Source of the DNA: Parasphingopyxis marina
GTDB lineage: Bacteria > Pseudomonadota > Alphaproteobacteria > Sphingomonadales > Sphingomonadaceae
Length of the DNA: 64,000 bases
Assembly (NCBI RefSeq): GCF_014237875.1
Contig: NZ_JACJVJ010000002.1
Coordinates: 124,001-188,000, forward strand
Reading direction: 5' to 3'
The first letter of the stretch is position 1. Every line of letters begins with the position of its first letter. Made by a program: the position numbers and the translations under genes. Shown here one piece after another: positions 14,114-22,986 of the stretch. The notes under the pieces are model-generated. The model was not told the origin of the DNA. It worked only from the letters and a program-made list of their open reading frames with translations, and did no database searches.

Positions 14114-14205
<92 letters not shown>

Positions 14206-14210
14206 GTTGC

Positions 14211-14834
14211 CTAGATCTTGTCCGCGTAAATTAGATGGCCTTCGCCAAGGCGGTTCAGCACCGTGCCGATATCGCTTTCGGAAAAGGCGAAACATCCGTC
14301 GCTGCGGCCGAGCTTGCCCTGTTGGGCGACAATATCGGGCCCGACATACCAGGCGGGATGGATGACGATGGCGCGGTCCATCGCGTTGCTGTTTTGGGGA
14401 TCGAGCCCCGCGAGACGTCGCGACTCTCCGTGCGAGCCGACATAGCGGTTCGCCGCCAGATAGGCGCCAGAGGAGGATGCGGCGGATCCGGGCCGGTTCG
14501 AAAATTGTTGGACGAAGCCGCTATGGGCAGGGTCCGATCCTCGACCATGGGCGACGAGCAGCGTCTGGCTGCGGCCGCTAACGGGATCGAGAATGTAAAA
14601 GCGTGGAAGCCGGGAATGGGCCGCATAATCGGCGATGCCGATAACGTCGGTTGCGATGATCTGATCACGATGCCGGCGAAAAGCCTCCATCGCACGGGCA
14701 ACGAGCTCCTCAGGAGGCTCTGCAAGGTTGGAACGGTCTGCGGCGGTCGCCTTGGCGATGCTAGGCATTCCAAGCGCCATAATGCCGCATCCAGCAAGAA
14801 TCTGGCGGCGGGATAGCGTGGGGGTCTTCGTCAC
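14211..14834 (-). CDS. L,D-transpeptidase catalytic-domain family protein (YkuD_2 type) with Tat-like signal
   Basis: The 207-residue product begins MTKTPTLSRRQILAGCGIMALG, a twin-arginine signal peptide. The mature part has HGRGSDPAHSGFVQQFSN, GAYLAANRYVGSHGESRRLAG, MDRAIVIHPAWYV and GRSDGCFAFSESD. The HxxW and S-GCF motifs match the YkuD_2 group, relatives of L,D-transpeptidases with the nucleophilic cysteine in SDGCFA. Such proteins are often annotated as murein L,D-transpeptidase catalytic domain proteins; activity has rarely been shown. It ends five bases from the tRNA-Ser 3' end and is divergent from another L,D-transpeptidase gene at 14946. Confidence 0.85.
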   Translation of the reverse strand: MTKTPTLSRRQILAGCGIMALGMPSIAKATAADRSNLAEPPEELVARAMEAFRRHRDQIIATDVIGIADYAAHSRLPRFYILDPVSGRSQTLLVAHGRGSDPAHSGFVQQFSNRPGSAASSSGAYLAANRYVGSHGESRRLAGLDPQNSNAMDRAIVIHPAWYVGPDIVAQQGKLGRSDGCFAFSESDIGTVLNRLGEGHLIYADKI

Positions 14835-14945
14835 TTCGGATACTCCACGATTGTGGCGATCCTAGCATATATTGCGCAGATTGCCGACGTCTTCCCCAAA
14901 GCCTAACCTAGACCCGCCAAAGGTGCGTTTAAAGGTGTGTATCGG

Positions 14946-15803
14946 ATGAGAAAGTTTCTCCTTCTCCTGATCTTGCTGTTTTCGGCGCCTGCCGTGGCGC
15001 AGGAGGAGGTCGATCCGGTATGCACCTTTGCCGAGACCCAATGGCCCGGCGCCGATCCCGCTGCCGAGCCTGCGCACCCGGCCCATCCCCATTATGCGGC
15101 GCTGCAGCGCGCCTATGCGCAGGAGACCGACCCCGGCCGGCGGGCGACCCTGGCGGCCAATATCCGGCGCTGGGAAGCGATGCCGCACCGGCTTGGCGAT
15201 CGCTATCTGCTCGTGAACGCGGCGGCATTCCGCGCGACCCTGTGGGAGGATGGTAGCCCGGTTTCGCAATGGCGCGTGATCGTCGGCCGGACGCGCACGC
15301 AGACGCCCATCTTTCATACCGAGGCGCGCGGCGTGATCCTGAACCCCTGGTGGGAGATTCCCGCGAGCATCGTCGCGGAAAGCGTCGGTGCGCTCGTCCG
15401 CAACCGCCCCGCCGAAGCGCGTCGCCGCGGTTATGTCGTACAGGGCGGCCGCTATCGGCAGCGCCCCGGCCCCGGCAACGCGCTGGGCCTGATGAAACTC
15501 GACATGCCCAATGCGCACAGCGTGGGTATCCACGATACGCCCAGCCGGCAGCTATTCGATCGCGAGGATCGCGCGCTCAGCCATGGCTGTGTCCGGATCG
15601 ACGACGCGCTGGGTTTCGCGACGACGCTGTTGTCCCGCCAACCCGAATGGACTCGCGAACGCGTCGATGCGGTGATCGCGGTCGGCGAGACGCGCACCGT
15701 GCCCTTCGACGCCCCCCTCCCGGTCTATATCGGCTATTTCACGGCGGAACCGGCGGCCGACGGCACCATCGGCTATTTCCCGGATATTTACGGCCGGGAC
15801 TAA
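14946..15803 (+). CDS. L,D-transpeptidase (YkuD/ErfK family)
   Basis: A 285-residue secreted enzyme with signal peptide (MRKFLLLLILLFSAPAVAQ) and a YkuD domain: YLLVNAAAFRATLWEDG, WRVIVGRTRTQTPIF and the catalytic motif with HSVGIHDTP followed by LSHGCVRIDDA (HGCVR cysteine). It should make or modify 3-3 cross-links or attach proteins to peptidoglycan in the periplasm. The ATG at 14946 is preferred over a GTG nine bases earlier because AAAGG lies at 14931-14935. The domain has a long N-terminal extension (residues 20-75) containing DPVCTFAETQWPG of unknown role. It is divergent from the YkuD_2 gene, with 111 bases between them. Confidence 0.92.
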   Translation: MRKFLLLLILLFSAPAVAQEEVDPVCTFAETQWPGADPAAEPAHPAHPHYAALQRAYAQETDPGRRATLAANIRRWEAMPHRLGDRYLLVNAAAFRATLWEDGSPVSQWRVIVGRTRTQTPIFHTEARGVILNPWWEIPASIVAESVGALVRNRPAEARRRGYVVQGGRYRQRPGPGNALGLMKLDMPNAHSVGIHDTPSRQLFDREDRALSHGCVRIDDALGFATTLLSRQPEWTRERVDAVIAVGETRTVPFDAPLPVYIGYFTAEPAADGTIGYFPDIYGRD

Positions 15804-16128: not shown

Positions 16129-17781
16129 CTAGAAATCGGCTCCCAGAACGAGCCGCACGCGCGGGGAGCGATCGCCGCTGTCGAAGCGGTCCTCGTTCAG
16201 CGGCGCGGCGGCTTCCACGGCCAAGCGGAACCGATCGGCAATCGTAGCCCGCGCACCCGCGCCTGCGGAAACGAGGCGCCCTCCGCCCAGTCCGGCCCCG
16301 CGATTGCGAACCCCGGCACCATCGACGAAACCGTAAATTTGCAGGCCATCCAGGCTATCGGAAGTATTTTCGATATCGTATCGCAGCTCCATCGCCCCGG
16401 CGATGCCGTTTTCGCCCGAGCGTTCATAGAAATCGAAGCCCCGCCCATAAGCAGGGCCGCCAATCCCCATTTCGTCGGCCGCCAGCAACGGGCGCGAGGC
16501 CATCTGCGCCTGGCCGGTGGCCTCGACGCTGAAACCGCTTCCCAGCGGCCGATAGACGCGCGCGAAAAGCTGGACTTTCGTGAACACGCCGCTGCCGTCG
16601 AAGCGCGAGGACAGTGGATCGTTCCCTCGGGTTGCGTCGAAAATCGCGATTCCCTGGGTCAGCTGAACGCCCCCGCTCAGATGCGAGCCGGCGATCCAGG
16701 CATAGCCGTTAAGGCCAAGCTCCGCGGTGGTCACGCGATCCTCGCGGATACGCAGGGTTTCCGCGTCCTGCGTGGTCTCCCGATACCGCAGATTGGCATA
16801 TCCCCACAGACTTGCTTCGCTGGTACGGACCAGCGGGTGAGAAATGGTGAGATAGGCGCTGAGGCTGTCGCCTTCGATATCGCCGCGGAACGACCTGATA
16901 TCCGGGTTCGATCGCGCGAAGAAGCCGCCAAGGGCAAAGCGTGTGCCGGTCTGCCCGATACCGGCCTCGTAGCGGGCGCTTGCAAAGCCCAGATCGCCCG
17001 GTTCGAAGGGTGTGGCGACCGCTGACAGGGACAGCTGGTCGCCGCCGCCGACTATGTTGCGGAGATGTACGCCGCCTTGGACACGCCAGGGACCGACGGA
17101 TTCGCTGCCGTTATTGTCGAGCTGCGCCCAACCGGCGACGGCGTCTTCGACGATCGCCACCTGGAGAACGCCCTCGCCTTCCTGGCGGAAGAATTGGGGA
17201 TTGGCGATCCGGACGCCCGGAATATCGGCGGCGAGGAGCAATTGCCGCTCCAGCCGCGCCCGGGTGACGGGCTCACCGTCGCTTAATGCATCGATGAACG
17301 CTTCGGCAGCGCTGTTGCGATCGCCGACATAGCGAATTTGACCGACCACGCCCGGATCGACGGAAATCTGCAATATGCCGGATTGGATGCGTTGGCGCTC
17401 GATCCAGGCGGTTGCGAAAACATAGCCTTCGTTCTGGAGCACGGCCGCAACCGCGGTTGTCAGGGTCCGGAGATCTTCCGCCGAGAGCGTTCGGCCTACA
17501 AAGCCCTGATAGGCCGGAACGAAGCTTGCGGCCGGCAATACCGTGTTTTCGACGCGTACGGCCCCCACAAACACGCCGTCATCGGCGTCCATATCCCGGA
17601 TATCGACCGGAATCGACGTCGGCGGCAATGCGACGTCGTCAGGCCTTTCGAACGGGGATTGCATGTCGAGACTCTCGGTCGCAATGGCCGGATCGGCGCG
17701 ATCCAGCGCGTTTTGCGCCGCAACAGGCGGGCAAAGCATCGTTAATCCGCTCAAGGCAATAAGGAGGGGGGAAGCGCGCAT
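16129..17781 (-). CDS. TpsB-like outer-membrane transporter (ShlB/FhaC/HecB family, POTRA plus barrel)
   Basis: The 550-residue protein has a signal peptide (SPLLIALSGLTMLCPPVAAQ), a linker, a POTRA_2 region (about 70-150: VRVENTVLPAASFVPAYQGFVGRTLSAEDL ... GYVFATAWIERQRI), a second POTRA-like part (residues 150-220, LQISVDPGVVGQIRYVGDR) and a C-terminal 16-strand barrel starting near WAQLDNNGSESVG. The end, VRLVLGADF, closes with Phe as in outer-membrane barrels. The loop-6 motif, usually VRGY/F, appears as GRGFDFYE. These proteins export large beta-helical TpsA partners. No TpsA gene lies beside it in this window; the divergent neighbour is instead a FecR-domain repeat protein. Confidence 0.88.
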   Translation of the reverse strand: MRASPLLIALSGLTMLCPPVAAQNALDRADPAIATESLDMQSPFERPDDVALPPTSIPVDIRDMDADDGVFVGAVRVENTVLPAASFVPAYQGFVGRTLSAEDLRTLTTAVAAVLQNEGYVFATAWIERQRIQSGILQISVDPGVVGQIRYVGDRNSAAEAFIDALSDGEPVTRARLERQLLLAADIPGVRIANPQFFRQEGEGVLQVAIVEDAVAGWAQLDNNGSESVGPWRVQGGVHLRNIVGGGDQLSLSAVATPFEPGDLGFASARYEAGIGQTGTRFALGGFFARSNPDIRSFRGDIEGDSLSAYLTISHPLVRTSEASLWGYANLRYRETTQDAETLRIREDRVTTAELGLNGYAWIAGSHLSGGVQLTQGIAIFDATRGNDPLSSRFDGSGVFTKVQLFARVYRPLGSGFSVEATGQAQMASRPLLAADEMGIGGPAYGRGFDFYERSGENGIAGAMELRYDIENTSDSLDGLQIYGFVDGAGVRNRGAGLGGGRLVSAGAGARATIADRFRLAVEAAAPLNEDRFDSGDRSPRVRLVLGADF

Positions 17782-17982
17782 CGATCTCCGCCGGGACAGC
17801 TAAAAACGGTTCGATCCGAGGCCCTACAGCCGATATCGCTAATATTCGGTTTCGTTGGAGCGGCGCGTAAAGACGGTGTTAACTGCTTTCGCAAGGAAAG
17901 CGCTAATCAGTGTCAACTAATTCCTTACGTCGAAGATCGCCCGAACAAAAAGGGGGGCGAATAACGACCGGGGATATTACCC
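17782..17982. promoter_or_regulatory. Divergent control region between the TpsB-like and FecR-domain genes
   Basis: The 201-base gap should carry promoters in both directions. Besides the plus-strand promoter entered separately at 17879-17907, two inverted repeats stand out. One is CCGATAT-CGCTA-ATATTCGG at about 17830-17849 with one bulged base. The other is TCGCCC at 17937-17942 pairing with GGGCGA at 17955-17960, just before the FecR ribosome site. The first may serve as an operator and the second as a leader hairpin; both roles are guesses. Confidence 0.4.
17879..17907 (+). promoter_or_regulatory. Candidate promoter of the FecR-CHASE2 operon with a palindromic spacer
   Basis: A -35-like TTAACT (17879-17884) and a -10-like GCTAAT (17902-17907) are separated by exactly 17 bases, and the whole spacer is the inverted repeat GCTTTC-GCAAG-GAAAGC (17885-17901). 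A protein bound there would cover the promoter core. The hexamers match the consensus only partly, so the promoter call is tentative; the palindrome itself is exact. Confidence 0.4.
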
Positions 17983-19473
17983 ATGAAAACCATCAGATAT
18001 TGCCTCATTCCGGCGCTTCTCCTTTCCAGTCAGGCGGCGCTAGCCGATGGACCGCGTTGGCGGGTTACCGAAACGAGCGGAGATGTGCAGGTGATGCGGT
18101 CCGGGCTTTCGCGCACCGCGACCCGCGGCAGCATGCTCTATTCGGGCGATATCGTAGCCACCGGCGATCGCGGCCGGGCGGTCGTGACTCGCGGCGAAGA
18201 ATATATGATCGTTTCGCCGGGCACCCGCTTGCGGCTTCCCGGTGATACCCGCGCGGGAGGAATAACCCGTATTATTGAAGAGGTTGGAAACGTTGTTTAC
18301 AACGTTCAGCGAAGAAATCATGAGCATTTCGGCGTCGAAACGCCCTATCTTGCGGCGGTCGTCAAAGGGACGACCTTCTCGGTTACTGTCGGCCCGGAAG
18401 GCTCGTCGGTCCAGGTCCTCGAAGGCCTTGTCGAGGTATCGACGCTCGATGGCGGGGCGACCCAGCTTGTCGAGCCCGGCTCGGTCGCGCTCGTTGCGGC
18501 CGGCAATCGTTACCAGCTGACGGTCGAAGGCAATGGAACCGAAGTCATCGATTCTCCGAACGCGCCCGAAAATGGCGGCGAGGCCGAACCGGGCGACGAT
18601 CAGGGCCATGTAACGACGGCCCTCCTTACCCCTTCGGACAGCCCATATGCGGATCAGATTGTCGATGAAATTCGGGCAAACCCGGTCGAGCTTGGCGCGT
18701 TGACCGGCGGGATCGTGGGCGGCGCGAACGATATCCGCGCCGAATTCTCCGAAGCCGACTACGCATCGCTCGATGCCGGAAATCTCGGAAACGATCTTGT
18801 TGATGGCAGTGGCGCGAGTGTCGGTGGCGGTAACGGCGTCGGAGGCGGCGTGAATGTCGGTGTCGGTGGCGGTAACGGCGTCGGAGGCGGCGTGAGTGTC
18901 GGTGTCGGTATTGGCGACGGAAACAACGGTCACGGAAACGATCCTGGTGGGTTCGACTCGAGCAATCCGGGGAACAGCTTAGGCGTCGGTGGTGGCGCGA
19001 GTGTCGGTGGCGGCAACGGTGTGAATGTCGGCGTCGGTGGCGGCGCGAGCGTTGGCGGCGGCAACGGTGTGAATGTCGGCGTCGGCGGCGGCGCGAGCGT
19101 TGGCGGCGGCAACGGTGTGAATGTCGGCGTCGGCGGTGGCGCGAGCGTTGGCGGCGGCAACGGTGTGAATGTCGGTGTTGGCGGCGGCGCGAGTGTCGGC
19201 GGCGGCAACGGTGTGAATGTCGGTGTTGGCGGTGGCGCGAGTGTCGGTGGCGGCAGCGGTGTTGATGTCGGCGTTGGTGCAGGCGTCGGTGGCGGCGGCG
19301 TGGATGTCGGTGTCGGCGTAGGTGTCGGCGGCGGCGGTGTCGATGTTGGAGTCGGAGTAGGCGGCGGCGGCGTGGGAATCGGGATCGGTGGCCTCAATGT
19401 CAATCTGAACGCCGGATCCGGATCGGGCTCTTCGGGCGGCGGCCTTGGAGGCTTACTCAATCGTAACCGATAG
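17983..19473 (+). CDS. Secreted FecR-domain protein with glycine/valine-rich tandem repeats
   Basis: The 496-residue protein has a signal peptide (IRYCLIPALLLSSQAALADG) and an N-terminal FecR domain (about residues 25-180): GDVQVMRSGLSRTATRGSML, GDIVATGDRGRAVV, FGVETPYLAAVVKGTTFSV and QVLEGLVEVSTLDGG are typical. After an acidic linker comes an extremely Gly/Val/Asn-rich C-terminal half (about 280-485) with six 16-residue units of the form GVGGGASVGGGNGVNV, ending in GGGLGGLLNRNR. It has no transmembrane helix after the signal peptide, unlike classical FecR anti-sigma regulators, so it is probably periplasmic or exported. It is followed after 16 bases by the CHASE2-EAL gene and is divergent from the TpsB-like gene. 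Its function is unknown; a surface or matrix role is inference. Confidence 0.85.
   Translation: MKTIRYCLIPALLLSSQAALADGPRWRVTETSGDVQVMRSGLSRTATRGSMLYSGDIVATGDRGRAVVTRGEEYMIVSPGTRLRLPGDTRAGGITRIIEEVGNVVYNVQRRNHEHFGVETPYLAAVVKGTTFSVTVGPEGSSVQVLEGLVEVSTLDGGATQLVEPGSVALVAAGNRYQLTVEGNGTEVIDSPNAPENGGEAEPGDDQGHVTTALLTPSDSPYADQIVDEIRANPVELGALTGGIVGGANDIRAEFSEADYASLDAGNLGNDLVDGSGASVGGGNGVGGGVNVGVGGGNGVGGGVSVGVGIGDGNNGHGNDPGGFDSSNPGNSLGVGGGASVGGGNGVNVGVGGGASVGGGNGVNVGVGGGASVGGGNGVNVGVGGGASVGGGNGVNVGVGGGASVGGGNGVNVGVGGGASVGGGSGVDVGVGAGVGGGGVDVGVGVGVGGGGVDVGVGVGGGGVGIGIGGLNVNLNAGSGSGSSGGGLGGLLNRNR
18982..19269 (+). repeat. Six in-frame 48-bp tandem repeats
   Basis: Units begin at 18982, 19030, 19078, 19126, 19174 and 19222. 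Units 1-5 encode the same 16 residues and differ only at synonymous third positions; unit 6 has Asn-to-Ser and Asn-to-Asp changes. More degenerate versions of the motif lie on both sides (about 18811-18912 and 19270-19400). Because 48 is a multiple of three, gain or loss of units keeps the frame. Confidence 0.95.
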
Positions 19474-19489
19474 CCGCTAAACTGGCGGG

Positions 19490-21826
19490 ATGTGGGGCCT
19501 CCCTTCTCTCGCCAGATATCGGCCAGGATATCGCATCGCGGTTTTCCTGATCGCGTTGGCGGCAGGCGCCATCGCGTCCACCACACAGGTTGCGGCCCCC
19601 CTCGACGACCAACTGCGTATTGTCAGGGACAATATTCGAACCCATGAGGCGAGCGGCGACATCGTCCTCGTCGAAATCGATGCGCGCAGTCTTGCCGAGA
19701 TTGACCGCTGGCCCTGGCCGCGCAGCAATCATGCGACACTCGTGCGCCGGCTGGAAGCCGCCGGCGCCGATATGGTCGCGTTCGACGTCGATTTTTCCAG
19801 CGCGTCCGATCCCGCTGAAGATCAAGCCTTCGCAGCCGCGCTCACCGAGAGCCATTCGCTGATATTGCTTCCCGCTTTTCGGCAATTTGCCGGTTCGGGC
19901 AGCAGGCAGGTGATCGAGAGCGAACCGATTGCGCCGCTGCGCGAAGCTTCTTTCCTGGCCGCAGTCAACATCCAGCCGGACGCCAGCGGCCAGGTGCGGC
20001 GGGCGCTTCTCGGCGTTTATACCGACGGTGTGCCCCGCCCTTCCCTGCCCGCCATGCTATCGGGCGTAACCGGATCGGCGGATACCTCCTTTCCCATCGA
20101 CTATTCGATCGATCCCGGTAGCATTCCCCGGCTGAGCTATGCCGATGTGGTTGCCGGACGGGCCGACCTGACGATGGTCGAGGGAAAATCCGTTATGGTC
20201 GGAGCAACCGCCATCGAGCTCGGGGATCGCTACGCGGTGCCGGGGCATGGCGTAATCCCGGGGGTGGTCATCCAGGCGTTAGCGGCGGAAACCCTGCTGG
20301 CACAGGGGATCCCGCGTGAATTCGGGCCGCTTGCCGGTCTCGGGATCGCCTTTCTCAGCGTCCTGCTGCTGATTTCTCGGGGGACGCTTTGGGTACGGTG
20401 CGTCTCGGCGGCTATTGGCGGCCTCTTCGTCCTGGGTCTCCCGCTCGTCGCGGAATCGCGCTTCAATGCGAGCTACGAAATCGCTCCGGCTCTGGCGATG
20501 CTGGCGGCGGCCGGGTCGGCCGGACTTTGCGCGATGGTGCTGCGCAAATATCTGCGGACGGCGCTGCTCGAACGGGAATCGGGACTGCACAATCGCGCGG
20601 CGCTGCTGCGCGCCATGGGCCGCAAACCCGATACGCAGCTCGTGATCGCTCGCATTGCCGAATATCCGGACATTGCGACGGTCATTTCCGCCGGCGATAT
20701 CAAAACCTATTTCCGGGAAATTGCGCGCCGTTTGGGGGTCGCGACACATTCGACCTTGTACCGGATCGACGATAATCTCCTGGCCTGGTTATGCGACGGT
20801 TTCGGCAATGAGGAGCTGGGCGATCATCTCGACGCGATCGATGCCTTGTTCAAGGCGCCGATCTCGGTCGAAGGCCAGCGCGTGGACACCAATCTGTTCT
20901 TCGGTGTCGCCGAAGGCAAGGGCGCCGACGCGCATCACCTGATTTCGGGGGCGTCATTGGCCGCGACGCGCGCCACCGAGGCCGGTTATCGCTGGGAACG
21001 CTATTTCGAGGGCGACGAGGATGGCGGAAAATGGCGGATTGCGTTGCTCGGAGAGCTTGACGAAGCGCTGCGATCGGGGGCCCTGTGGGTCGCCTTCCAG
21101 CCCCAGCTCGATATCGTTTCCGGCGGTATCCTCGGTGCGGAGGCACTGATCCGCTGGAATCACCCGGTCCGCGGGCCGATCCCGCCGGACAGCTTCATCC
21201 CGCTGGTCGAAAAGCGCGGCCGGATTGCGGATCTTTCGCTGTTCACGGTCGATCGCGCGCTCGAGGCCTTGCGCAAATGGCAAGGGGTTGGTCTCGACAT
21301 GAGCGTTGCCGTCAACATCTCGGCGACATTGCTCAAGAAGCGCGATTTCCTGGACGCCATGTGGGAAAAGATCGAATCCTCCGGGGTGCGCCTGGACGCG
21401 CTGACCATCGAGATCACCGAATCCGCCGCGCTGGAAGATCCCGAGGCGGCGATCGCGGCGATGAACGAATTGCGGGAGCGCGGCATTCGGCTTTCGGTCG
21501 ACGATTATGGCACCGGCCAATCGACGCTGACGTATCTGCGGAAACTTCCCGTACACGAGATCAAGATCGACAAGAGCTTCGTGCAGGGCCTGACTGAAAA
21601 TGCCAGCGATCGCATCCTGATCCGCTCGACCATCGAGCTGGCGCATGAGTTGGGCCTGAAAGTGGTGGCCGAAGGCATCGAGAATCTCGAATGCCTCGAA
21701 GCCCTGAAGGAGCTCGACTGCGATATCGCCCAGGGCTTTTTCATCGGACGGCCGATGGAGGCGACCGCTTTCGAGATGTTGGCCGAAAATGGCGGGGCGA
21801 ACCGCGCTTCCGCGATTGCGGCCTAG
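19490..21826 (+). CDS. CHASE2 - degenerate GGDEF - EAL membrane c-di-GMP phosphodiesterase
   Basis: A 778-residue protein. An N-terminal membrane helix (YRIAVFLIALAAGAIAST) leads into a periplasmic CHASE2 sensor (about 35-285), then three membrane helices (about 285-355). A cytoplasmic GGDEF-like domain follows without the GGDEF motif (YRIDDNLLAWLCDGF at that place), and last comes an EAL domain (about 525-770). The EAL residues look intact: GAEALIRW, VNIS, EITES, DDYGTGQSTLTYL, KIDKSF, EGIE and DIAQGFFIGRP. It should therefore hydrolyse c-di-GMP in response to a periplasmic signal, while cyclase activity should be absent. It starts 16 bases after the FecR gene stops, so the two form an operon. 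Confidence 0.93.
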   Translation: MWGLPSLARYRPGYRIAVFLIALAAGAIASTTQVAAPLDDQLRIVRDNIRTHEASGDIVLVEIDARSLAEIDRWPWPRSNHATLVRRLEAAGADMVAFDVDFSSASDPAEDQAFAAALTESHSLILLPAFRQFAGSGSRQVIESEPIAPLREASFLAAVNIQPDASGQVRRALLGVYTDGVPRPSLPAMLSGVTGSADTSFPIDYSIDPGSIPRLSYADVVAGRADLTMVEGKSVMVGATAIELGDRYAVPGHGVIPGVVIQALAAETLLAQGIPREFGPLAGLGIAFLSVLLLISRGTLWVRCVSAAIGGLFVLGLPLVAESRFNASYEIAPALAMLAAAGSAGLCAMVLRKYLRTALLERESGLHNRAALLRAMGRKPDTQLVIARIAEYPDIATVISAGDIKTYFREIARRLGVATHSTLYRIDDNLLAWLCDGFGNEELGDHLDAIDALFKAPISVEGQRVDTNLFFGVAEGKGADAHHLISGASLAATRATEAGYRWERYFEGDEDGGKWRIALLGELDEALRSGALWVAFQPQLDIVSGGILGAEALIRWNHPVRGPIPPDSFIPLVEKRGRIADLSLFTVDRALEALRKWQGVGLDMSVAVNISATLLKKRDFLDAMWEKIESSGVRLDALTIEITESAALEDPEAAIAAMNELRERGIRLSVDDYGTGQSTLTYLRKLPVHEIKIDKSFVQGLTENASDRILIRSTIELAHELGLKVVAEGIENLECLEALKELDCDIAQGFFIGRPMEATAFEMLAENGGANRASAIAA

Positions 21827-21946
21827 CGATGCGCGGCAAATCCGACCGCCCGAACCGTTAGGCCCAGATTAACCATGGCGGTACGGATTTCTTTAGTATG
21901 CATCGCGTAATGACCGATTTCAGCAGTTCCGGGGGGGATGCTTCGA

Positions 21947-22270
21947 ATGCGATTGAGCACAGAATATTGTGACGAAGGCCTAGGCACCGGTTCGGTTGCG
22001 GCCGGCTCGATCGACATATGGGCGCGCGTCTCGCAATATGAGCGCAAGCCGAAGCTCGCGACCGTCCGCGATCTTTCACCGTCCGGCTTCATGCTCGACC
22101 GCAACTCCTCCGTGGAGGTCGGAACCCTGCTTCTGCTGCAATTTCCCGGCCTGAATTCGATGGTGGCGCGGGTCATCTGGATCAACGATATTCTTGTAGG
22201 CTGTGAGTTCGAGCGCCCGCTTTCGTCCGAGGAAATGGCGACGCTTCAGAAATCCGCCTGGTGCATGTAG
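21947..22270 (+). CDS. PilZ domain protein
   Basis: The 107-residue product has a PilZ-like core: ERKPKLATVRDLSPSGFML carries the DxSxxG element, followed by VGTLLLLQFPGL and ARVIWINDILVGCEFERPL. PilZ domains bind c-di-GMP; the upstream basic RxxxR element is present only in a loose form (RKPKLATVR), so binding must be tested. The start is either ATG at 21938, which directly abuts a run of seven G, or ATG at 21947, which has that G run nine bases upstream; I prefer the latter. It lies 120 bases after the EAL gene on the same strand and ahead of a strong terminator, so it may belong to the same unit. Confidence 0.8.
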   Translation: MRLSTEYCDEGLGTGSVAAGSIDIWARVSQYERKPKLATVRDLSPSGFMLDRNSSVEVGTLLLLQFPGLNSMVARVIWINDILVGCEFERPLSSEEMATLQKSAWCM

Positions 22271-22320
22271 CGAAAGATCGCTGAACCGGCGCGGCTGTCC
22301 GCCCGGTTCAAAACGAGTTT

Positions 22321-22359
22321 GAGGCCGCGTCTCGGGGGAAACGCGGCCTCATCCTTTTT
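22321..22359 (+). terminator. Strong, probably bidirectional, intrinsic terminator
   Basis: GAGGCCGCGT (22321-22330) and ACGCGGCCTC (22341-22350) form a perfect 10-base-pair stem with a 10-base loop, followed by ATCCTTTTT on the plus strand. On the minus strand the stem is followed by AAACTCGTTTT. It can end the PilZ transcript and the rpmE transcript, which converge here. Confidence 0.85.
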
Positions 22360-22694: not shown

Positions 22695-22723
22695 TTGACA
22701 AGGCCGGTTTTCGGCGGCTAGCG
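22695..22723 (+). promoter_or_regulatory. Candidate promoter of the btuBFCD operon
   Basis: TTGACA (22695-22700) is a perfect -35 hexamer, followed after 17 bases by CTAGCG (22718-22723) as a weak -10. Transcription would start near 22730, immediately before the riboswitch. The position and the good -35 make this the likely promoter. Confidence 0.5.
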
Positions 22724-22734
22724 CGGCCTCAAGC

Positions 22735-22900
22735 AAAGGTGCCGCCGTAACGGGCGGTGAAAAGGGAAGCCGGCGAAAATCCGGCGCTGTGCCCGCAACT
22801 GTAAGCGGTGAGCCCCTCCCCTTGCGCCACTGGACCAACTGGTTCGGGAAGGCGGGGAATGGGCATCGATCCGCAAGTCAGGAGACCTGCCTTTGCTGTC
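22735..22900 (+). promoter_or_regulatory. Cobalamin riboswitch
   Basis: The leader has the ordered landmarks of the class: an AAAGGTGCCG start, AAAGGGAAGCCGG, GCCCGCAACTGTAAGCGG, GCCACTGG, GGGAAGGCG and AAGTCAGGAGACCTGCC (B12 box plus the closing stem). It lies 87 bases before the btuB start. By knowledge of the class, adenosylcobalamin or a related cobamide lowers expression of the downstream genes. The GACATGTGTCGTGAACGAAGGAGC segment just before btuB may contain the expression platform covering the ribosome site. Confidence 0.95.
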
Positions 22901-22986
22901 GTCCGTGCCCGGCCGGGACCAGCCGTAAGCATGGGAAGCGACAGCTTCCTTCGTGACGACATGTGTCGTGAACGAAGGAGCTCTAT

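Follow-up and report, generated by a model that had tools for sequence, protein, structure and literature searches.

A conserved TpsB, FecR and CHASE2-EAL gene module in sphingomonads suggests a connection between the cell surface and cyclic di-GMP

A 64,000-nucleotide stretch of the Parasphingopyxis marina genome (Sphingomonadaceae; contig NZ_JACJVJ010000002.1, positions 124,001 to 188,000; genome size 3.3 Mb), referred to here as the window, contains a divergent cluster in which a TpsB-type outer-membrane translocator adjoins genes for an exported FecR-domain protein, a CHASE2-EAL protein, and a PilZ-domain protein. TpsB, the FecR protein, and CHASE2-EAL are a conserved module across many genera, in which TpsB is no accidental neighbor. 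The window TpsB (16129..17781, minus strand) has a signal-like N-terminus and Pfam matches to ShlB (E = 3.5e-25) and POTRA_2 (E = 1.5e-10), both above cut-off. Its AlphaFold2 model, with a mean predicted local distance difference test score (pLDDT) of 88.6, predicts 2 POTRA domains and a barrel of 16 strands, as counted by hand, and its relatives in the Protein Data Bank are CdiB and FhaC.

The FecR gene (17983..19473, plus strand) is separated from tpsB by a divergent intergenic region of 201 bp by open reading frame (ORF) coordinates (17782..17982), in which a promoter scan found no sigma-70-like match. Its product, which we propose as the client of TpsB and the partner of CHASE2, has an N-terminus judged by eye to be signal-like, a FecR domain (Pfam E = 5.1e-8), and a variable low-complexity tail. 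Within the tail, a Gly/Val/Asn-rich tandem repeat (18982..19274, plus strand) has a unit of 48 bp, or 16 residues, present in 6.1 copies with 93% matches according to Tandem Repeats Finder. The repeat is modeled as regular strands (residues 331–430, block pLDDT 77–87); regular beta models easily arise from exact repeats, and the fold of the tail is hence not leaned on here.

After a gap of 16 bases follows the gene for the CHASE2-EAL protein (19490..21826, plus strand), with Pfam matches to CHASE2 (E = 9.2e-37) and EAL (E = 2.6e-69). The domain between them is called a degenerate GGDEF domain because Pfam gave no GGDEF match in this protein. The residues needed for metal binding and catalysis in EAL domains, E550, N608, E640, D670, D671, K691, E727, and Q747 (numbered on the first alignment row, which starts at residue 2), are invariant in 13 of 13 aligned sequences. 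This conservation makes the lowering of cyclic di-GMP (c-di-GMP) the likely output, and the protein is predicted from its sequence to be a c-di-GMP phosphodiesterase. The PilZ-domain protein (21938..22270, plus strand; Pfam E = 2.3e-7, 31.5 bits by hmmscan) comes last. The initial annotation had described a minus-strand TpsB divergent from a signal-peptide FecR repeat protein, the 16-base gap, the degenerate GGDEF domain, and the downstream PilZ gene, and coordinates and Pfam matches agree with it on each; its “five-gene” set comprises 4 genes. The “strong terminator” that it placed behind PilZ corresponds to a stem-loop of 14 pairs with a loop of 4 at 22320..22351, between PilZ and a convergent L31 gene. 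This is a probable terminator, although the call rests on a single stem, listed for the minus strand, and the 6 terminator-like sites in the scan are no excess over the shuffle mean of 6.9.

The distribution of the module was followed in 119 genomes drawn from the family (labels with G) and in 80 FecR loci (labels with L, as for the other loci named here). A profile scan of named genomes gave 441 confirmed relatives, of which these loci are the best 80 and for that reason represent the nearest part of the FecR family. Three assemblies are common to both sets (G073 = L049, G081 = L059, and G105 = L097), and family members in the samples include Allopontixanthobacter sediminis and Sphingomonas horti. 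A search with the window TpsB gave some match in 66 of the 119 genomes and a match of at least 228 bits in 14, the window's own genome included, with the next best at 149 bits. The FecR-domain profile matched 53 genomes at a cut-off of E = 0.001, and in 15 of them the E-value fell below 1e-40. All 14 module-TpsB genomes are among these 15, the sole extra being G077. FecR and CHASE2-EAL adjoin TpsB in 12 of the 13 module genomes other than the window's own; in the thirteenth, G023, the module is split across contig ends, with FecR at the end of a contig and the rest cut off.

The FecR loci span Sphingomonas, Sphingobium, Sphingopyxis, Parasphingorhabdus, Stakelama, Sphingosinicella, Qipengyuania, Altererythrobacter, Porphyrobacter, and other genera. 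A module-type TpsB adjoins FecR in 76 of the 80; it is complete in 75 and truncated by the end of the contig in the other. The complete proteins score 498–734 bits, compared with 174–280 bits for the TpsBs of 28 non-module loci. A complete CHASE2-EAL is present in 68 loci and one truncated by the contig end in 2 more, while 5 of the remaining 10 also lack the end of the FecR ORF on their contig. All 3 members occur together in 66 loci, or 68 if the 2 with a contig-cut CHASE2-EAL are counted, a recurrence beyond chance. The initial annotation had suggested that repeated co-occurrence of its gene set across genera would support a system; such co-occurrence holds for these 3 genes, PilZ lying outside the core. 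It had also raised the contrary picture of a TpsB that is an independent neighbor with a distant TpsA, next to a FecR-EAL pair that mostly occurs alone; this is not what the FecR subfamily displays.

Gene order falls into 2 main layouts. Thirty loci have the order of the window, and in 34 others CHASE2-EAL follows TpsB on the same strand, both divergent from FecR; 2 loci have other orders. In 14 of these 34, TpsB and CHASE2-EAL overlap by 1 base, which suggests co-translation. The distance between tpsB and FecR is 57–181 bp in 59 of the 68 relatives with both ORFs, and the module TpsBs form one group with all 22 rows tested (the window and 21 others) at a support of 100/99. Two loci, L105 and L110, come from genomes with one module FecR and one module-type TpsB on separate contigs. 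The fetched flanks of these unlinked TpsBs, in the L110 genome an 8.6-kb contig only, contain no FecR, CHASE2, or EAL. That TpsB is kept in 2 genomes even though unlinked speaks for a functional link with FecR. L090 is an additional FecR gene, the other copy in the same genome being the one that adjoins a TpsB, and beside the FecR of L066 there is a 26-residue TpsB remnant (54% identity, E = 5.8e-4), the genome otherwise having only non-module TpsBs. The differences in gene order, and the presence or absence of PilZ, would be expected if adjacent genes had merely been co-inherited and shared a neighborhood with no shared function. We consider this very improbable given that the same 3 members recur in 2 main orders, that they are co-retained while unlinked in 2 genomes, and that their TpsBs are a single group. 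A viral origin of the locus was also dropped, as no relative turned up when viral contigs were scanned for TpsB.

PilZ accompanies the module only in some loci and lies outside its core. In 68 loci, 49 small same-strand ORFs located no more than 500 bases from CHASE2-EAL were scanned with Pfam; 3 proved to encode PilZ proteins, and PilZ as a core gene was rejected on this count. One, in S. horti (L059), lies between FecR and CHASE2-EAL, and the others (L075 and L086) lie behind CHASE2-EAL. A phmmer search with the window PilZ had no match in 93 loci, phmmer being weak for PilZ, and a genome-wide PilZ search recovered the S. horti protein again (G081); the window PilZ was not listed by it, so that this search is not fully sensitive. 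Elsewhere in the window, one tRNA and 2 divergent L,D-transpeptidase (YkuD) genes lie beside the module at 14116–15803, with a YkuD-gene relative also near the module in L023, and an ordinary cobalamin riboswitch (22720–22908, 134 bits) precedes a TonB-dependent receptor gene.

Translocators of the TpsB type belong to two-partner secretion (TPS, type Vb), and the module TpsB resembles CdiB and FhaC in domains, predicted fold, and sequence, the structure analysis having used 47 of the 75 complete TpsB rows and the window. Unlike type Vb systems, the module TpsB has no adjacent TpsA with a TPS domain, and the conserved exported neighbor carries a FecR domain instead. Genome-wide, P. marina has 2 ShlB, 2 FecR, and 3 CHASE2 matches and one weak TPS-domain match, the only one at E up to 0.1. 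It lies about 214 kb from the module beside a TpsB of its own, in keeping with the earlier claim that no TpsA is nearby. Across the module genomes, a TPS-domain match at E = 0.1 adjoins none of the 14 module TpsBs but 12 of the 13 other ShlB matches, and the thirteenth (G081, L141) lies beside a TpsA-like ORF seen only by phmmer. Six of these genomes (G044, G051, G055, G059, G068, and G105; 99%–100% complete) have ShlB only in the module and no TPS match at E = 0.1. The leftover weak TPS matches, in G091 (17 bits) and G081 (13.9 bits), are both far from the module. No module FecR occurs within 6 kb of a non-module TpsB in 28 loci; 14 of these 28 TpsBs have a TpsA-like or very large (at least 1,200 residues) same-strand neighbor. 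As a control, 9 of 13 ShlB proteins in 6 module-less genomes adjoin a TPS match, in one case (G053) across the junction that arises when its single contig is treated as circular.

The distant TPS match of P. marina is a 2,739-residue TpsA in a second TPS locus (L009:2506-18588, on G000:C2), where it accompanies a CHAT-TPR protein, a CHASE2-cyclase, a small exported protein, and a TpsB. Loci of this type in P. marina and relatives are like the module in linking a CHASE2 receptor to TpsB and unlike it in their TpsA, CHAT protein, and cyclase, and the TpsB of L009 lies outside the module group. The idea that the small exported protein of L009 is a FecR relative was unsupported (hhalign probability 5.9). 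Nine of the 28 non-module TpsBs have a CHASE2-cyclase no more than 6 kb away, which suggests that a second CHASE2-TPS system recurs in these genomes. In L031 (G031:C8), CHAT, a small exported protein, CHASE2-cyclase, and TpsB stand in a row and no TPS match or TpsA-like ORF lies beside TpsB; the similar L029 has a TPS match just downstream (G106:C10:129084). L133 (G061:C1) is another non-module TpsB for which no partner is known, the single ShlB match of a genome with no TPS match, and it has no large or recognized neighbor. The third CHASE2 protein of P. marina is a CHASE2-EAL (L010:3301-5622, G000:C2:101300-103621) with no FecR or ShlB match beside it.

The FecR side of the module has its own known counterparts. 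Passages of PMC5192318 describe BiofilmReg, an operon of a LysM-FecR protein and a CHASE2 histidine kinase in Burkholderia, with the pair also in P. aeruginosa PAO1. We fetched 20 FecR–CHASE2 regions, hand-picked rather than exhaustive, and none has a TpsB match. Fourteen clear adjacent pairs among them were scanned, leaving out G077 and 5 regions with only small FecR proteins. Their FecR proteins match LysM (PF01476) in 8 of 14 cases and PEP-CTERM in 3 of 14, and of their 14 CHASE2 partners, 13 match HATPase_c and the remaining one a cyclase. The TpsB-less pairs with histidine kinases are of the kind described in the BiofilmReg account of PMC5192318. As in BiofilmReg, the exported FecR protein of the module adjoins an inner-membrane CHASE2 receptor; unlike it, the module has a low-complexity tail and an EAL domain in place of LysM and a histidine kinase. 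Other arrangements were also seen, including a 1,213-residue FecR-TPR protein beside a CHASE2-cyclase (L126:1484-6895), whose C-terminal half is barrel-like by eye, and small FecR proteins ending just past the FecR motif in L127–L131, with a CHASE2 gene near in 4 of the 5 regions. Some of the small-FecR profile matches extend past a TGA, which is probably the natural gene end.

The FecR domain of the window is predicted to have the fold of the PupR periplasmic domain, and the module is in this respect like Fec/Pup cell-surface signaling (FecA-FecR-FecI and PupB-PupR-PupI). It is unlike these systems in that its FecR protein has no anti-sigma or STN match (Pfam at E = 0.001, with FecR as the sole match) and in that its output would be c-di-GMP. 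The LapD-type receptor has a degenerate EAL domain and serves as a receptor rather than an enzyme. The module differs from LapA/LapD adhesin retention in its conserved EAL site and in having CHASE2 as the periplasmic domain. Parts of the literature on these systems describe LapD as an effector responding to c-di-GMP (PMC12077191) and the periplasmic region of PupR as binding the periplasmic domain of an outer-membrane receptor (PMC7186176).

On the whole, the tail sets the module FecR proteins apart from those of the TpsB-less FecR–CHASE2 pairs. Its median entropy is 1.23–3.20 bits in 69 relatives versus 3.31–3.89 bits in the 14 comparison proteins. These 69 are what remained of the 80 loci after removal of 7 FecR ORFs that leave the contig and 4 (L035, L081, L103, and L110) that contain X, and they include L066, L090, and L105, all of which have no adjacent TpsB. 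Co-variation was analyzed by rank and partial correlations in 65 complete sets (64 loci and the window). The partial correlation of FecR, conditioned on every other region, is 0.33 with the TpsB barrel (resampled 0.22–0.45), 0.25 with POTRA2 (0.12–0.34), 0.18 with CHASE2 (0.04–0.29), and 0.13 with POTRA1 (0.01–0.30), while it is 0.02 with the transmembrane/GGDEF region and 0.02 with EAL. The difference between CHASE2 and EAL is of interest because both are parts of one protein. These values hint weakly at a place for FecR between TpsB and CHASE2.

We propose, tentatively and with somewhat less than even confidence, an envelope-spanning chain from TpsB through FecR and CHASE2 to EAL, in which the FecR protein is a client of TpsB and its tail the probable cargo. 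TpsB would occupy the outer membrane, its POTRA domains facing the periplasm. The beta-rich FecR domain would stay in or near the periplasm, working with TpsB and with the periplasmic CHASE2 domain, and the variable, cysteine-poor, low-complexity tail would be threaded outside as TpsB cargo. CHASE2-EAL in the inner membrane may then read the state of the FecR domain, changing EAL activity and so lowering c-di-GMP, with PilZ as an added nearby c-di-GMP receiver in some species. The data above show that the genes are conserved and co-retained, that no TpsA partner is detectable, and that the EAL site is intact, and they give the predicted folds. From them we infer the contacts of FecR with TpsB and CHASE2, the export of the tail, the direction of the signal, and the catalytic activity; the label of “surface system,” which the initial annotation gave the locus, is likewise an inference. 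That annotation had offered the FecR protein either as the exported partner or as a sensor feeding CHASE2, and the two ideas may be compatible.

Several observations weigh against this chain. The FecR domain is not a TPS domain: PF05860 was found in neither the window FecR protein nor the N-terminal pieces of 73 relatives, and no TPS-domain chain is among the structure matches listed, which excludes nothing. PF05860 overlooks some TpsAs, as the L141 ORF illustrates, and 4 of the 13 control ShlBs adjoin no TPS match (one in G061, one in G110, and 2 in G031), G061 having one ShlB match and no TPS match in the whole genome. A TpsB with no detected TpsA is thus uncommon but not unique. These same cases, together with the pairing of a CHASE2-cyclase and a TPS system at L009 in the same genome, favor the alternative that the module TpsB exports a separate divergent TpsA or other product encoded elsewhere, with FecR and CHASE2-EAL merely regulating it. 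We regard this as unlikely, since no module TpsB in the 14 genomes lies beside a TPS match and in 6 of these genomes the module ShlB is the only one, with TPS matches absent at E = 0.1.

Further points against the proposed chain concern the tail and the co-variation. G077 has a tailed FecR and CHASE2-EAL with no TpsB match anywhere in the genome, and subfamily members with no adjacent TpsB keep the tail (2.36 bits in L066, 2.09 in L090, 2.62 in L105, and 2.74 in G077), so that the tail tracks the FecR subfamily and only on the whole TpsB. Twelve further module relatives span 1.72–3.37 bits, the highest overlapping the comparison group. All region pairs correlate at 0.64–0.88 and the partial values are modest, the genes being linked. 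Tail compositions are wholly different among relatives, which a simple spacer fits too, and we take them to resemble the spacers of TolA and TonB. This last resemblance counts for the main rival to the client and relay reading, a Fec/Pup-like sensor in which TpsB would be a surveillance or transducer barrel and the FecR protein would remain wholly periplasmic, its tail a spacer, and pass the state of TpsB to CHASE2-EAL with no export. The rival also draws on the existence of TpsB-less FecR–CHASE2 pairs, mostly with histidine kinases and often with LysM, as in the portions of PMC5192318 on BiofilmReg, on the PupR-like fold, on the tails of TpsB-less members, and on L126, where FecR and TPR are joined in one protein beside a CHASE2-cyclase. 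It does not account for the persistence of a TPS-type translocator that has its usual domains but lacks its usual cargo, and we consider it possible, though on the doubtful side.

The client reading can be taken further, to a new class of two-partner secretion that would be coupled to a second messenger. The FecR domain would replace the TPS domain, dock on the POTRA domains of its dedicated TpsB, be retained in the periplasm, and be read by CHASE2; the fast-evolving tail would lie outside, and its contact or loading would set c-di-GMP breakdown. We hold this fuller version to be rather unlikely as a whole.

The initial annotation knew of no published description of this set, and we found none of CHASE2 with FecR and a two-partner secretion or ShlB component among the titles and passages covered in the open-licence PMC literature; the FecR–CHASE2 pairing itself is published in the BiofilmReg passages of PMC5192318, whose main text contains neither “two-partner” nor “hemolysin.” Both the FecR–CHASE2 pairing and TpsB were known before; the novelty appears to lie in their fixed combination with EAL and with a TpsB that has no TpsA neighbor. 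The module suggests an undescribed connection from the surface to c-di-GMP. PMC5192318 calls the signals that CHASE2 recognizes unknown; the module links this domain to a likely partner in the periplasm and a likely barrel in the outer membrane, and so opens its input to experiment. Export of the FecR protein, if it occurs, would extend two-partner secretion beyond the TPS domain and connect the cell surface directly with c-di-GMP.

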